Assembly: GCA_003553165.1 (NCBI GenBank)
Contig: PUOZ01000125.1
Span: 1 to 10,079, forward strand
Direction: 5' to 3'
Length of the DNA: 10,079 nt
From: Thioalkalivibrio sp.
GTDB taxonomy: Bacteria > Pseudomonadota > Gammaproteobacteria > Ectothiorhodospirales > Ectothiorhodospiraceae
Shown: positions 2,178 through 8,860 of the stretch, one piece after another
How positions within the stretch are numbered: position 1 is the first letter of the stretch
Layout of the letters: each line of letters starts with the position of its first letter
The notes under the pieces: generated by a model
Told to the model about the DNA's origin: nothing
Database searches by the model: none
The model's input: only the letters and a program-made list of their open reading frames with translations
Translations under genes and position numbers: made by a program

Positions 2178-3203
2178 GTGGAATTCAGCTTGGGGGATTT
2201 GGCCGAGAGACTGGGCGTCGAGCTGAGTGGCGATCCCCGTCGTCCGATCCAAGGGATCAGCGCCCTGGACTCCAGCAAGCCCGGTACCATCAGCTTTCTG
2301 GCGCATTCCCGCTATCGTCACCATCTGCGCGGGACCCGTGCCGCTGCGGTCATCCTGACGCAGGAGGAACGTCAGCACTGTCCGGTCGATGCGCTGATCA
2401 GTGCCGCACCCTATCTCTGTTATGCCCGCCTCACCGCACTGTTTGCCCCCCGGTTTGCCGCCGTTGAGCCCATTCATCCGAGCGCCGTGGTCGATCCCGG
2501 CGCCAGCCTGGGCGCGGGGGTGCGGATCGGTGCCAATGCGGTGGTCGGCGACGGGGTGACACTGGGCGAGGGGGTGGAGATCGGCCCCGGCTCTGTGGTG
2601 TTGCAGGGCAGCCGTATCGGTGCCTCCAGCCGTCTGATGCCGAATGTCACCGTCTATCATGACTGCATGATTGGTGAACGGGTCCTGATCCACAGTGGTG
2701 CGGTGATCGGCAGTGACGGCTTCGGGTTCGCCCAGGATGGCAAGGAGTGGGTCAAGATCCACCAGCTGGGCCGGGTGGTGATCGGTAATGACGTGGAGAT
2801 CGGGGCCAACACCTGTGTCGACAGGGGCGCCATCGAAGATACGCTGATCGGCGATGGGGCCAAGCTCGACAACCTGATCCAGGTGGCGCACAACGTCAAG
2901 GTGGGCGCCCGTACGGTGATGGCCGGTTGCGTGGGGATCGCCGGGAGCGTGGATATCGGCGAGGACTGCGCGCTGGGCGGTGGCGTCGGCGTTGCCGGCC
3001 ACCTGAGTATTCCCCCCGGCACCAAGGTCATGGGGATGTCGCTGGTGAGCAGTTCGCCACCCGAGCCGGGTGTCTATGCCGGAGGTCTGCCGGCAGCAAA
3101 GCGCGGGGATTGGCAACGCAATGCCTTGCGCTTCCGTCAGCTCGATGGCATCGCCAAGCGTCTGCATAAGCTGGAAAAGGCGCTGGAAGAAGGGCGGACG
3201 TGA
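2178..3203 (+). CDS. lpxD: UDP-3-O-acylglucosamine N-acyltransferase
   Basis: LpxD adds the second, N-linked hydroxyacyl chain from acyl-ACP to UDP-3-O-acylglucosamine in lipid A synthesis, and works as a cytoplasmic trimer. The GTG at 2178 gives 341 residues, the same length as E. coli LpxD, and starts VEFSLGDLAERLG like the family N-terminus. An upstream GTG at 2130 would add 16 unconvincing residues. The N-terminal uridine-binding domain (about 1-97) is followed by a long left-handed beta-helix of hexapeptide repeats (about 98-290; e.g. IGANAVVGDGVTLGEGVEIG). The motif IQVAHNVKVG holds the catalytic base, His238 here and His239 in E. coli. The C-terminal helix carrying KRLHKLEKALEE matches the family's coiled end. 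Only a GGGGG-type weak ribosome-binding site is seen. The gene stands alone, without bamA, skp, fabZ, lpxA or lpxB, so it could be a second paralogue. Confidence 0.93.
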   Translation: MEFSLGDLAERLGVELSGDPRRPIQGISALDSSKPGTISFLAHSRYRHHLRGTRAAAVILTQEERQHCPVDALISAAPYLCYARLTALFAPRFAAVEPIHPSAVVDPGASLGAGVRIGANAVVGDGVTLGEGVEIGPGSVVLQGSRIGASSRLMPNVTVYHDCMIGERVLIHSGAVIGSDGFGFAQDGKEWVKIHQLGRVVIGNDVEIGANTCVDRGAIEDTLIGDGAKLDNLIQVAHNVKVGARTVMAGCVGIAGSVDIGEDCALGGGVGVAGHLSIPPGTKVMGMSLVSSSPPEPGVYAGGLPAAKRGDWQRNALRFRQLDGIAKRLHKLEKALEEGRT

Positions 3204-3363
3204 CCTGCGTGCCGAAGGCCGACGCCCTCGGGTCGCGTTGTGGAATAGGAACTCCCGTATGAACCACTGGCAGAGAAAGGAAGCGGGACCGGCCCCGCGG
3301 TTGATGACGGGGGCGTGTAACGCCGACGAGGCCACTGGCGGTCACGCCGCAGGGCCAACCCCT

Positions 3364-3389
3364 GTCGGGTTACCCTGCGCCAACCCGAC
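3364..3389. repeat. Palindromic repeat, copy A (GTCGGGTT...AACCCGAC)
   Basis: Perfect 8 bp arms, GTCGGGTT (3364-3371) and AACCCGAC (3382-3389), flank a 10-nt spacer. The arms are identical to those of copy B 61 bp away, while the spacers differ. This marks a dispersed REP-like palindromic element and not chance. Similar 'CGGGTTA...TAACCCG' elements are common in high-GC proteobacterial intergenic DNA (from general knowledge). Confidence 0.75.
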
Positions 3390-3424
3390 CTACGCGACTA
3401 TGTGGTCACACCGCACGACCGTAA

Positions 3425-3454
3425 GTCGGGTTAGCCCGAAGGGCGTAACCCGAC
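3425..3454. repeat. Palindromic repeat, copy B, strong hairpin
   Basis: Arms GTCGGGTTA (3425-3433) and TAACCCGAC (3446-3454) pair perfectly over 9 bp. An inner GCCC (3434-3437) pairs with GGGC (3441-3444), closing a 3-nt loop with one bulged G (3445). It lies 13 bp past the stop of the minus-strand gene and 221 bp past lpxD, so it is well placed to act as a bidirectional transcription barrier or 3'-end stabiliser. There is no T-tract on either side. Confidence 0.78.
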
Positions 3455-3467
3455 ATCGCGCCTTGGC

Positions 3468-3917
3468 TCAGGCCGCGTACCGGGCCTTGGCTTCGCGGGC
3501 CGCCCTGGCCTCGGCGTCGGAGTAGGCCTTGCCCGACCACAGCATCTCGTAGGCGATCTCCTCGTTGCCATTCTCGCAGAGGTCGAGCACCTCGCGGAAC
3601 AGCGGCTGGAAGGTCTCGCTGCGGTGCGATGCCTCGTGTTCCTCGAACGACTTCCAGAACGTGATGATCAGGGCCTCGCGGTCCTTCAGCGGGCTGTCCA
3701 CCGGCTGGCCGATGGTCGAGCCCTCGTTCGAAACGGCACCGGAATTCATGGCCACGAACCCACCGACAAACCCTGTGTCGGAGTGGTAGGTCTTCACGTT
3801 CTCGCAGAGCATCGCGACGCGTTCCTGAAGATCGTCCACCGTGTATTCCGGCTTGATGATCACGCGATTGAGGGTCACGACACCATCGGGCGGAAAGTTG
3901 CTGATGAGCTGACTCAT
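3468..3917 (-). CDS. Single-domain SOR-like dimeric alpha/beta-barrel protein
   Basis: The gene encodes 149 residues without a signal peptide or membrane segment, so the product is probably cytoplasmic. The ATG at 3917 is chosen because AAAGGAGG (3930-3923) sits 5 nt upstream; an in-frame ATG at 3947 lies inside a 5'-UTR hairpin and lacks a site. The middle of the protein resembles the ABM-like dimeric alpha/beta-barrel fold, and more specifically half of sulfur oxygenase reductase (SOR). TGFVGGFVAMNSG (48-60), TFWKSFEEHEASHR (86-99), LFR (106-108) and EEIAYE (119-124) match in order SOR's GFVGF, TFWKDWKDHEEMHR, LFR and WEPIYE. His94, His98 and Glu120 fall on SOR's iron ligands His86, His90 and Glu114. 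Cys38 lies near the place of SOR's essential Cys31, offset by about three residues. SOR itself is about 310 residues with two such halves, so this is half-length. The alignment is from memory; the reaction and substrate are unknown. A general ABM monooxygenase or heme/iron-binding protein is the alternative. Confidence 0.6.
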   Translation of the reverse strand: MSQLISNFPPDGVVTLNRVIIKPEYTVDDLQERVAMLCENVKTYHSDTGFVGGFVAMNSGAVSNEGSTIGQPVDSPLKDREALIITFWKSFEEHEASHRSETFQPLFREVLDLCENGNEEIAYEMLWSGKAYSDAEARAAREAKARYAA

Positions 3918-3940
3918 GACTGCCTCCTTTTCGGCAACAA

Positions 3941-3954
3941 GCCCCATGCGGGGC
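3941..3954 (-). other. Hairpin in the 5' UTR of the SOR-like gene
   Basis: GCCCC (3941-3945) and GGGGC (3950-3954) form a perfect 5 bp GC stem with a 4-nt loop. It lies 24 bp upstream of the start codon and 11 bp upstream of the ribosome-binding site on the minus-strand transcript. No T-tract follows, so it is not a terminator; it could stabilise the mRNA or adjust ribosome access. Confidence 0.4.
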
Positions 3955-3977
3955 GTTTCAGTACTTGGTTGAGTGCT

Positions 3978-4005
3978 AATATAAAAGACCTAGTAGAATA
4001 GTCAA
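3978..4005 (-). promoter_or_regulatory. Candidate sigma-70 promoter of the SOR-like gene
   Basis: On the minus strand, TTGACT (4005-4000) matches the -35 consensus at 5 of 6 positions and TATATT (3983-3978) matches the -10 at 5 of 6, with a 16 bp spacer. Transcription would begin near 3971 and leave a ~54-nt leader. The element sits in an AT-rich patch that stands out from the GC-rich surroundings. The left part of an IscR-type (Rrf2 family) operator can be seen over the -35 region, at 3985-4009; see findings. Confidence 0.6.
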
Positions 4006-4031
4006 GAATTCCCCTGCGGCTTGCGGACCAT

Positions 4032-4037
4032 TACACT
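4032..4037 (+). promoter_or_regulatory. Weak -10-like element TACACT before mazG
   Basis: TACACT (4 of 6 matches to the -10 consensus, within TTACACT) ends 7 nt before the mazG ATG. No good -35 is visible. If used, the transcript would start at or almost at the start codon, giving a leaderless mRNA, which would fit the lack of a Shine-Dalgarno sequence. Confidence 0.25.
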
Positions 4038-4044
4038 CCCCAAC

Positions 4045-4863
4045 ATGGACATCCACGACTCCGATCCACTGCGCCGCCTTCGCGCCATCATGGCGCGGCT
4101 GCGCGATCCCGATGGCGGCTGCCCCTGGGATCGTGCGCAAACGCCCGGATCGATCGTCCCCTTCACGCTGGAGGAGGCCTACGAGGTCGGCGAGGCCATC
4201 GCCAGCGGAGAGCCCGAAGCCATCCAGGGCGAGCTCGGAGACCTGCTCTTCCAGGTGGTTTTCCAGGCGCGCCTGGGCGAGGAGGCCGGCGATTTCGACT
4301 TCGACGACATCGCGCGCGCGATTGGCGACAAGTTGCTGCGCCGGCACCCACATGTGTTCGGCGATGCCGAGTTCGCCGAGGACCACGAGCGGGAAGCGGC
4401 CTGGGAATCGGCCAAGGCCGACGAGCGCAGCGAGCGCGACCGGCACAGCGCCCTGGATGACATCCCGCTGGCGATGCCGGCGCTGGCGCGCGCCCAGAAG
4501 CTTCAGCGCCGGGCGCGGCGGGTCGGCTTCGACTGGCACGAAGCGGCCGCGGTAATCGACAAGATCCGCGAGGAGATCGGCGAGGTCCAGGCCGAGTTCG
4601 AGCAAGGCGCCATGCCCGAACGCCTTACGGACGAGGTGGGTGACGTGCTGTTCACCGTGGTGAACTGGGCGCGGCACCTGGGCGTGGATGCAGAGACCGC
4701 ACTGCGCGGCAGCAACCGCAAGTTCGAGCGTCGCTTCCGAGCAATGGAAACCCTGGCCGAAGCAGACGGTCGGGGGATGAACGATCTGAGCCTGGACGAA
4801 CTCGAAGCCCTTTGGGCCGAGGCGAAGCGCTCGGAAGGAAAGGGTCCGTCGAACCACCTTTGA
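4045..4863 (+). CDS. mazG: Nucleoside triphosphate pyrophosphohydrolase MazG
   Basis: MazG cleaves (d)NTPs to the monophosphate and pyrophosphate. It is linked to removal of abnormal nucleotides and, in E. coli, to tempering of ppGpp signalling. The 272-residue product has the standard two tandem MazG domains. The first carries CPWDRAQT (about 27-34), then LEEAYE (42-47) and GELGD (62-66), which give the acidic Mg2+ site. The linker region holds RRHPHVF and the family element HSALDDIP. The second domain has EEIGEV (176-181), DEVGD (196-200), VNWARHLG, and KFERRFR (226-232). Catalysis in E. coli MazG depends on the C-terminal domain, whose acidic residues are intact here. The ATG at 4045 aligns with E. 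coli MazG; no clear Shine-Dalgarno precedes it. The gene is divergent from the SOR-like gene, and an oxidoreductase follows 14 bp after its stop. Confidence 0.95.
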   Translation: MDIHDSDPLRRLRAIMARLRDPDGGCPWDRAQTPGSIVPFTLEEAYEVGEAIASGEPEAIQGELGDLLFQVVFQARLGEEAGDFDFDDIARAIGDKLLRRHPHVFGDAEFAEDHEREAAWESAKADERSERDRHSALDDIPLAMPALARAQKLQRRARRVGFDWHEAAAVIDKIREEIGEVQAEFEQGAMPERLTDEVGDVLFTVVNWARHLGVDAETALRGSNRKFERRFRAMETLAEADGRGMNDLSLDELEALWAEAKRSEGKGPSNHL

Positions 4864-7858: not shown

Positions 7859-8572
7859 ATGCCTAGCAAGCCAATTCGTACCGCCCTGGTGACCGGCAAT
7901 TCCAGCGGACTGGGTCTCGGCCTGACCCGCGTGCTGATGCGCCAGGGTGCCACAGTGTACGGGCTCAGCCGCAGCGGCTGTCCCGAGGAGACCGCCGGAG
8001 ATGTCCGCGTGGATCTGGCCGACTACGCAGGTATTGCCCCCGCAATTGCGCAGCTGCTGGACGGCGTGGAACGCCTGGACCTGGTGGTGTTGAACGCGGG
8101 CCTGTTGGGTCAGATCCAAAGTATGCAGGAGGCGGACATCGCCGAACTCCGGCAACTGATGGACGTGAACGTCTGGGCGAACAAGCCGATCCTGGACCAT
8201 TTCCTTGCCAAGGACATCGAGGTGGGGCAGATCATCGCCATCTCCTCCGGGGCCGCGGTGTCCGGCAATTTCGGCTGGAGCGGCTACTCGATCTCGAAGG
8301 CGGCCCTGAACATGTTCGTGCAGTTATACGCCCACGAATTCCCAGAGACACCGATGCACAGCCTGGCCCCGGGGCTGGTCGATACCGCGATGCAGGAGTT
8401 CATCTCGGAGGAGGTCGATGTCGAGCGCTTCCCGGCCCTGAAACGCCTGCAGGAGGCGCGCGGCACGGACGCGATGCCCGACAACGATACGGCTGCGCAG
8501 ATGATTCTGGATGGCCTGCAACGGGTTCGCGCGATTCCCACTGGCAGCTTCGTCGACCTGCGCAACCTGTAG
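7859..8572 (+). CDS. Short-chain dehydrogenase/reductase (SDR)
   Basis: A 237-residue classical SDR with a single Rossmann fold. The cofactor-binding glycine motif is TGNSSGLG (12-19), NAG is at 79-81, the structural Asn is in DVNVW (Asn104), the catalytic Ser is in ISSGAAVSG (129-130), and the catalytic Tyr143 and Lys147 are in GYSISK. LAPGLVDT (169-176) follows as expected. Ser38-Arg39 after the second strand would favour NADP(H). The shape is close to benzil/sepiapterin-reductase-like SDRs, but the substrate cannot be assigned. The ATG at 7859 is fixed by AGGAGG (7846-7851) with a 7-nt spacer; the open frame continues upstream to 7751 through the stem-loop and is not used. It is a lone gene, followed by the repeat block. 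Confidence 0.88.
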   Translation: MPSKPIRTALVTGNSSGLGLGLTRVLMRQGATVYGLSRSGCPEETAGDVRVDLADYAGIAPAIAQLLDGVERLDLVVLNAGLLGQIQSMQEADIAELRQLMDVNVWANKPILDHFLAKDIEVGQIIAISSGAAVSGNFGWSGYSISKAALNMFVQLYAHEFPETPMHSLAPGLVDTAMQEFISEEVDVERFPALKRLQEARGTDAMPDNDTAAQMILDGLQRVRAIPTGSFVDLRNL

Positions 8573-8578
8573 GCGCGG

Positions 8579-8792
8579 CCTCCCAGCGCCGGGATCGCCG
8601 GGAGGGCTCGCCTTCTACCGGGGCTGGGTTGGAGTGTGGGAGGCCAGCCCTCTTGGCGACTCCTGCCAGGGCCAGGTGGCCGATAGGGCTCGCCTCCTGC
8701 AGGGTGCTGGGTTGGAGCGTGGGAGGCCAGCCCCCTGGGCGAGCTCCTGCCAGCGCCGGGTGGCCGAGAGGGCTCGCCTCCTGCAGGGTGCC
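8579..8792. repeat. Tandem palindromic repeats, ~83 bp period
   Basis: AGGGCTCGCC starts at 8603, 8685 and 8769 (periods 82 and 84). GTGGGAGGCCAGCCC starts at 8636 and 8719 (period 83). Each full unit, 8636-8704 and 8719-8788, opens with GGAGGCCAGCCC and closes with GGGCTCGCCTCC, which are inverse complements apart from one base, so each can fold as one long hairpin. A 3'-half unit precedes at 8580-8622. The sequence CCTCCC (8579-8584)/GGGAGG (8600-8605) gives a smaller hairpin 7 bp after the SDR stop. Copies differ by scattered substitutions (about 10-15%), so the duplication is not brand new. This resembles REP/BIME-like intergenic elements of high-GC proteobacteria. Confidence 0.85.
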
Positions 8793-8848
8793 CTGGTCGA
8801 ATACCGGCTTTTCCGCATATTCCGAACATGGGCATATAAAAGATTTTC

Positions 8849-8860
8849 ATCACCGGTGAT
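8849..8860. repeat. Perfect 12 bp palindrome in an AT-rich island
   Basis: ATCACCGGTGAT is a perfect palindrome, flanked by TTTTC (8844-8848) and, two bases further on, GAAAA (8863-8867), which extends the symmetry. The surrounding 8820-8880 is markedly AT-rich against the GC-rich background. A regulator binding site is likelier than a terminator, since A's follow on the plus strand and the loopless core folds poorly. Confidence 0.5.

Follow-up and report, generated by a model that had tools for sequence, protein, structure and literature searches.

The window, i.e. the whole stretch of DNA analysed, comprises 10,079 nucleotides of Thioalkalivibrio sp. (assembly GCA_003553165.1, 67.9% complete; contig PUOZ01000125.1) and carries a small gene on the minus strand, whose open reading frame (ORF) begins with an ATG at 3917 and ends with the stop codon at 3468–3470. 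As called and read from the DNA, the coding sequence (3468–3917, stop included) specifies 149 residues, predicted to form a single-domain protein of the ABM fold in the lineage of sulfur oxygenase reductase (SOR). On the same strand, it is preceded by a Shine-Dalgarno sequence AGGAGG recognized by eye (3923–3928) and by a sigma-70-like promoter TTGACT-16-TATATT (3978–4005), the only one found in 3200–4150, where shuffled sequences gave a mean of 0.2. The −35 element is overlapped by an operator resembling the IscR type-1 consensus (3985–4009, minus strand), which on consensus scoring matches 18 of 25 positions. An earlier note, made from the sequence alone, had described a half-length SOR-like protein with an intact set of iron ligands. 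Its coordinates and protein length proved correct, the strand being minus, and the elements that it named (TFWKSFEEHEASHR, LFR, EEIAYE, TGFVGGF, and Cys38) are all present. It did not foresee the role proposed here: IscR-type control and the links to IscU and to a DsrC-like protein point to iron–sulfur (Fe-S) cluster assembly, not to a free-standing sulfur oxygenase.

The relationship to SOR becomes visible by profile comparison. With hhalign, the family aligns to the N-terminal, iron-binding half of SOR with a probability of 88.5 and an E-value of 2.7e-6, and a search of the PDB with the family profile returned SOR for all ten best sequences (E 3.7e-4 to 0.064; the best value varied from about 3.3e-4 to 3.7e-4 between runs). 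This supports the SOR lineage claimed in the earlier note, and the 149 residues in one domain bear out its half-length description. The profile search that it had proposed was answered in part: the best family-profile matches are SOR and not an unrelated dimeric alpha-beta barrel family, but the window protein itself stays below the curated SOR cut-offs (PF07682, 15.1 bits versus 25; NF047630, 16.6 versus 400). Single-sequence searches of Pfam, NCBIfam, and the PDB gave SOR matches below threshold only, mixed with others. The full-length SORs of relatives likewise fall below the NF047630 cut-off (0 of 40 genomes pass).

By alignment, the SOR iron ligands His86, His90, and Glu114 (PMC7398979) have their candidate counterparts in His94 (codon 3636–3638), His98 (3624–3626), and Glu120 (3558–3560), and the essential Cys31 of SOR in the invariant Cys38 (3804–3806), all on the minus strand. 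The numbering of these residues had been given correctly before, as had the spacing of 22 residues between His98 and Glu120, against 24 between His90 and Glu114. The hhalign stretch takes in both histidines; Glu120 lies outside it, and its correspondence rests on the match of the ExxY motif. Near the place of SOR Cys101 and Cys104 lies one nearly invariant cysteine, Cys114 (3576–3578, minus strand; 292 of 294 proteins). In total, 11 hand-chosen positions of the family and SOR can be paired, with offsets of 5 to 9. Ten of these are invariant in both the 57-row family alignment and the 7-row SOR alignment, the remaining one being Gly49 (46 of 57). In an unrooted tree, SOR is attached through very long branches with unsettled bootstrap values. 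The family may represent an ancestor or an offshoot of SOR with a single domain. Among 40 genomes of relatives, 12 encode full-length SOR separately, including the genome of the window itself, where it is a partial frame at a contig end; ten of these 12 carry the SOR-like small gene too. A second, divergent full-length SOR paralogue occurs in genomes of the Thioalkalivibrio type and in one from another family (loci L145, L146, and L147, and contig C93 of the window's own genome, L148), with 33–36% identity to the first SOR over the aligned part and a score far under the NF047630 cut-off.

The family consists of thousands of proteins without any curated model naming them. The window protein has 4398 relatives at E 0.001 in a search of 5.8 billion proteins; among the best 120 listed, most database names read "hypothetical protein" or "ligand-binding protein SH3." In a genome collection of all bacteria and archaea, 418 stretches encode a relative, the best 80 of which come from Thioalkalivibrio, Thiobacillus, Sedimenticola, Halochromatium, Thiodiazotropha, and less precisely named bins. 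Subfamily A denotes the group of the window protein, with about 150 residues. Subfamily B comprises proteins of about 120–190 residues with 28–39% identity to it and has 4459 relatives, which may overlap with the 4398 of subfamily A; its best matches are Gallionella and Sideroxydans, and it also occurs on 26 viral contigs. Cultured phages (queried with subfamily B) and plasmids (queried with the window protein) gave no match. One genome, G219, shows a partial duplication, with the C-terminal fragment of a second family copy (L128:5928–6622) behind a complete one. The open-licence literature, to which the search was confined with subscription journals and preprints outside it, yielded no paper that deals with the family or with its control by IscR.

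All 294 proteins of a redundant set of best hits (293 listed hits and the window protein) share Cys38, His94, Glu95, His98, Glu120, Tyr123, and Trp127, which exceeds what chance would give. The free variation of the ligands that would have spoken against the earlier note was not observed: His94, His98, Glu120, and Cys38 never vary in this set. The 57-row alignment, with identities down to 28%, retains 21 invariant columns that include Cys38, His94, His98, Glu120, Tyr123, and Trp127. Because Glu119 is replaced by Lys, Arg, His, or Ser in subfamily B and Glu124 is also variable, Glu120 is the right candidate for the third ligand. The structure model computed from this alignment shows an ABM fold with a pLDDT of 89.7 and supersedes an earlier 18-row model (pLDDT 77.5); herein, the candidate iron ligands are carried by the helix 91–98 and the strand 119–124. 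Pfam ABM (PF03992) is matched by 11 of 18 family members at E up to 1 (best 0.0053), the window protein not being listed.

The promoter region was compared with the 25-position IscR type-1 consensus printed in PMC3899308, to which two putative operators of the Pseudomonas aeruginosa isc operon show 68% and 76% identity (PMC3899308). The 59 upstream regions read comprise 49 hand-picked named loci of the best 80, the window, and nine further loci. Sites with at least 19 of 25 consensus positions (range 19–23) are present in 35 of them, against 0.42% of 1180 dinucleotide shuffles; the window's own operator is weaker, with 18. All but one of the 35 sites end 30–81 nt before the start codon, often over TTGACT. 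Elsewhere in the same loci, 18 of 1113 other upstream regions reach 19. Six of these control sites were read: three (L045, L065, and L071) are the family's own site where the gene was not called, one (L091) belongs to an S24-like gene, and L081 and L106 are unexplained. Loci with the S24-like gene account for nine of the 18, counting L091. This gene (L091:9467–9826 and its counterparts upstream of subfamily A in Thiobacillus) encodes a 120-residue S24-peptidase-like protein (PF00717, one scored) with its own IscR-like site upstream. Two Thiobacillus genomes encode a small unnamed protein (155 and 139 residues as called; L216 and L230) behind such a site.

A whole-genome pattern search allowing up to three mismatches gave 30 sites in ten of 13 genomes, and the reversed control gave none in 13. 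The sole site of genome G409 lies 69 nt before the SOR-like gene, and two further genomes (G474 and G466) have one site each with the sequence of the SOR-like gene's promoter site. Among 24 sites whose surroundings were read, iscR follows in five genomes (two over the TIGR02010 cut-off, one just under it, and two by eye); others stand before two DsrC-like genes (one by eye), grx4, and genes of the iscA and cysE type, and about half of the 24 precede genes without an evident Fe-S tie. In subfamily B, ten of 11 located genes (out of 12) lack an own operator, the only one with an operator being L188 (21 of 25); in L193, an operator precedes the DsrC-like leader of the subfamily-B gene.

In the window, the SOR-like gene is flanked by a convergent lpxD and a divergent mazG (Pfam assignments, gene symbols our own), and the ten ORFs further include Mrp antiporter genes, an oxidoreductase, an nadC-type phosphoribosyltransferase, a ZIP transporter, and a short-chain dehydrogenase. 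Stretches rich in GC that are inverted or repeated, REP-like by eye only, adjoin the 3' end of the SOR-like gene (3350–3465) and follow the dehydrogenase gene (8570–8850). No shared partner was seen across 81 subfamily-A sequences (80 loci and the window; target called in 64), the neighbours following lineage instead: Mrp antiporter genes in Thioalkalivibrio, and S24-like, xseA-, miaA-, and tol-like genes in Thiobacillus, mostly judged by eye. Fourteen more regions gave the same picture, except that L132 lies close to tusA-, rhodanese-, and sox-like genes and L134 to qmo-like genes (both by eye).

In subfamily B, an iscU-type gene is found nearby in four of the 26 viral contigs. It is at most 5 nt away in L168 and in L181 and L182 (L182 by cluster pattern only) and at most 185 nt away in L167, with a 58-codon frame between. 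Both gene orders occur among these contigs, and an IscA-type gene lies further off; the iscU-type proteins of L167 and L181 score over the TIGR01999 cut-off. The viral status of these four rests mainly on their IMG/VR listing, and the phage origin of L113, L116, L120, L121, and L122 is backed by tail, tape-measure, primase, or ssDNA-binding families. On L122, whose contig is also that of L165, the subfamily-B gene has a Rieske ring-hydroxylating oxygenase on one side and an IscA-type gene on the other. In seven of the 26 viral contigs, a DsrC-like gene with a single C-terminal cysteine stands upstream of subfamily B, 125 nt away in five (one scored, PF04358). Phages of SUP05 carry dsrC (PMC4164917), and iscA and nifU are reported from viral sequences (PMC8226683 and PMC8940887).

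The DsrC-like gene recurs in bacterial genomes. Among the 80 genomes of the Gallionella-type family of G364, it is present in 44, four of them without dsrA, and in all 22 carriers of subfamily B; it stands directly upstream of the subfamily-B gene in two of the 22 (G518, read, and G488, by coordinates). Within dsrA genomes, the link between the two genes has a p-value of 0.014. Of 30 loci of the DsrC-like gene, 29 could be located, and 27 of these have an upstream operator with at least 19 matches; among 580 mononucleotide shuffles, 0.69% reach this level. As an observation in its own right, this single-cysteine gene of Gallionella-type bacteria (L222:2004–2303 and L232–L261) may encode a sulfur carrier tied to Fe-S status.

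The carriers in the tested samples are sulfur oxidisers with rDsr or sHdr. All genome samples counted here were drawn from this phylum. In a sample of 398 genomes, nine have a match to the window protein at E 0.001. One of the nine matches belongs to subfamily B, remote members of which could be missed with this query. The marker dsrA scores over its cut-off in 51 of the 398, including eight of the nine carriers, the ninth being the window's own incomplete genome (Fisher p 3.6e-7; 4.5e-8 without it). In the G364 family, dsrA is present in 46 of 80 genomes and in 22 of 22 carriers (p 2.9e-7; 0.006 when shuffled within genera). Since many dsrA genomes do without the SOR-like gene (43 of 51 in the phylum sample and 24 of 46 in the G364 family), the gene is accessory. 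Among 50 named carriers from the best 80 loci, dsrA was found in 41 at E 1e-60 and in 39 over the cut-off. The nine without it include five Thioalkalivibrio with an HdrB-like pair on one contig, one of which (L150) shows LbpA-DsrE-LbpA-like genes by eye, three (L149, L153, and L162) with an HdrC-HdrB-like pair behind a QmoB-like gene (by eye), and one (G457) with neither arrangement. PMC6382920 describes hdr for all rDsr-negative strains. In the 40 relatives of Thioalkalivibrio, 25 carry the SOR-like gene, ten of these with dsrA over the cut-off, and two incomplete genomes (G415 and G416) have dsrA without the gene; the distribution in this group is thus not accounted for by dsrA alone.

Taken together, the promoter, the order of the genes, and the co-occurrence favour a role in handling sulfur for Fe-S assembly among sulfur oxidisers. 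The protein would be a single-domain, probably mononuclear-iron protein that handles sulfane sulfur in the service of cluster assembly, to which a probability of about one half is assigned; behind it stand the family, the conserved ligands, the predicted fold, the operator in the promoter, the gene links, and the co-occurrence, all read from sequence. The mechanism that we infer, from the iron, the persulfide, and the dimer to the binding of IscR, the partner proteins, and the direction in which sulfur flows, would operate in bacteria that oxidise sulfur in the cytoplasm via rDsr or sHdr. By homology to SOR, one iron would be bound by His94, His98, and Glu120, with Cys38 as the likely persulfide-carrying residue beside it, and the protein probably dimerises as other ABM proteins do. 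When clusters are plentiful, holo-IscR would repress the gene. When clusters are short, the protein would be made and would convert the sulfane sulfur bound to carriers of the DsrC/TusE type, or hand it on, so that IscU may be loaded or else kept clear of excess polysulfide. It would not replace SOR, which coexists with it. More tentatively, and rather unlikely in this full form, the system may be an undescribed bridge, in which an IscR-controlled miniature SOR and the single-cysteine DsrC-like carrier take sulfane sulfur out of the rDsr/sHdr pool and supply it to IscU, with phages carrying parts of the route along with iscU and iscA.

The strongest competitor is a true miniature sulfur oxygenase, whose dimer would produce sulfite by oxidising elemental sulfur, polysulfide, or protein persulfide in the cytoplasm, in a branch of dissimilatory sulfur oxidation or for detoxification, IscR control merely sparing iron. 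The ligands and cysteine shared with SOR and the rDsr or sHdr background of the tested carriers speak for such an enzyme, but it has to share ten genomes with a separate full-length SOR, most dsrA genomes of the phylum sample manage without it, and a promoter of the Fe-S-status type with links to iscU and iscA is, in our judgement, unusual for an energy enzyme; we regard it as an unlikely explanation. Lower still ranks a haem-degrading or haem-binding protein like IsdG or MhuD that would release iron during a shortage of Fe-S clusters. Foldseek places structures of IsdI and IsdG among its best matches (ranks 8 and 9), the regulation is of an iron type, and Asn17, Trp88, and His98 resemble the IsdG catalytic triad Asn7, Trp67, and His77 (PMC6018153), with a Trp-to-His spacing of 10 in both. 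However, no IsdG appears among sequence-profile matches at E up to 1, Cys38, His94, and Glu120 are invariant yet outside the triad, and the partners found are sulfur carriers and Fe-S genes, which makes this reading improbable. An iron chaperone or donor to IscU after the model of CyaY and IscX, its His-His-Glu site only carrying iron, is the most doubtful, as its proximity to iscU in four viral contigs and its IscR-type promoter would fit but the invariant Cys38, the DsrC-like partner, and the sulfur-oxidiser link would stay unexplained.

Where sulfur oxidisers obtain the sulfur for their many Fe-S enzymes, and how their large dissimilatory sulfane pool is kept from disturbing the ISC machinery, are in our judgement open questions. 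A conserved unnamed gene with SOR active-site residues and an IscR-type promoter makes both testable, and the family is a new candidate auxiliary gene of phages.

Compared with known systems, the family is closest to SOR (PF07682 and NF047630), with which it shares the N-terminal-half elements Asn, Cys, GF, TxW, HExxH, and ExxY, in unchanged order and an almost constant register, an ABM-like fold, and sulfur-oxidising hosts. SOR, a 24-subunit sphere with sulfur oxygenase and reductase activity, consists of two ABM-like halves in about 310 residues, in contrast to the one domain of the window protein, whose family coexists with full-length SOR and has an IscR-type promoter and viral relatives. 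Among the ABM or dimeric alpha-beta barrel monooxygenases (PF03992), SnoaB is cofactor-independent by its entry title, whereas an invariant His-His-Glu set and a Cys characterize the present family. The haem oxygenases IsdG, IsdI, and MhuD share the ABM fold and resemble the family in the Asn-Trp-His positions but differ in the extra invariant residues, the gene company, and the missing sequence-profile match. With the IscR regulon (iscR, iscA, and grx4; iscU on viral contigs), the SOR-like gene shares the operator type, the kinds of genome, and the closeness on viral contigs. We know of no description of it as a member of that regulon, and its ABM fold is, to our knowledge, unlike the known ISC components.
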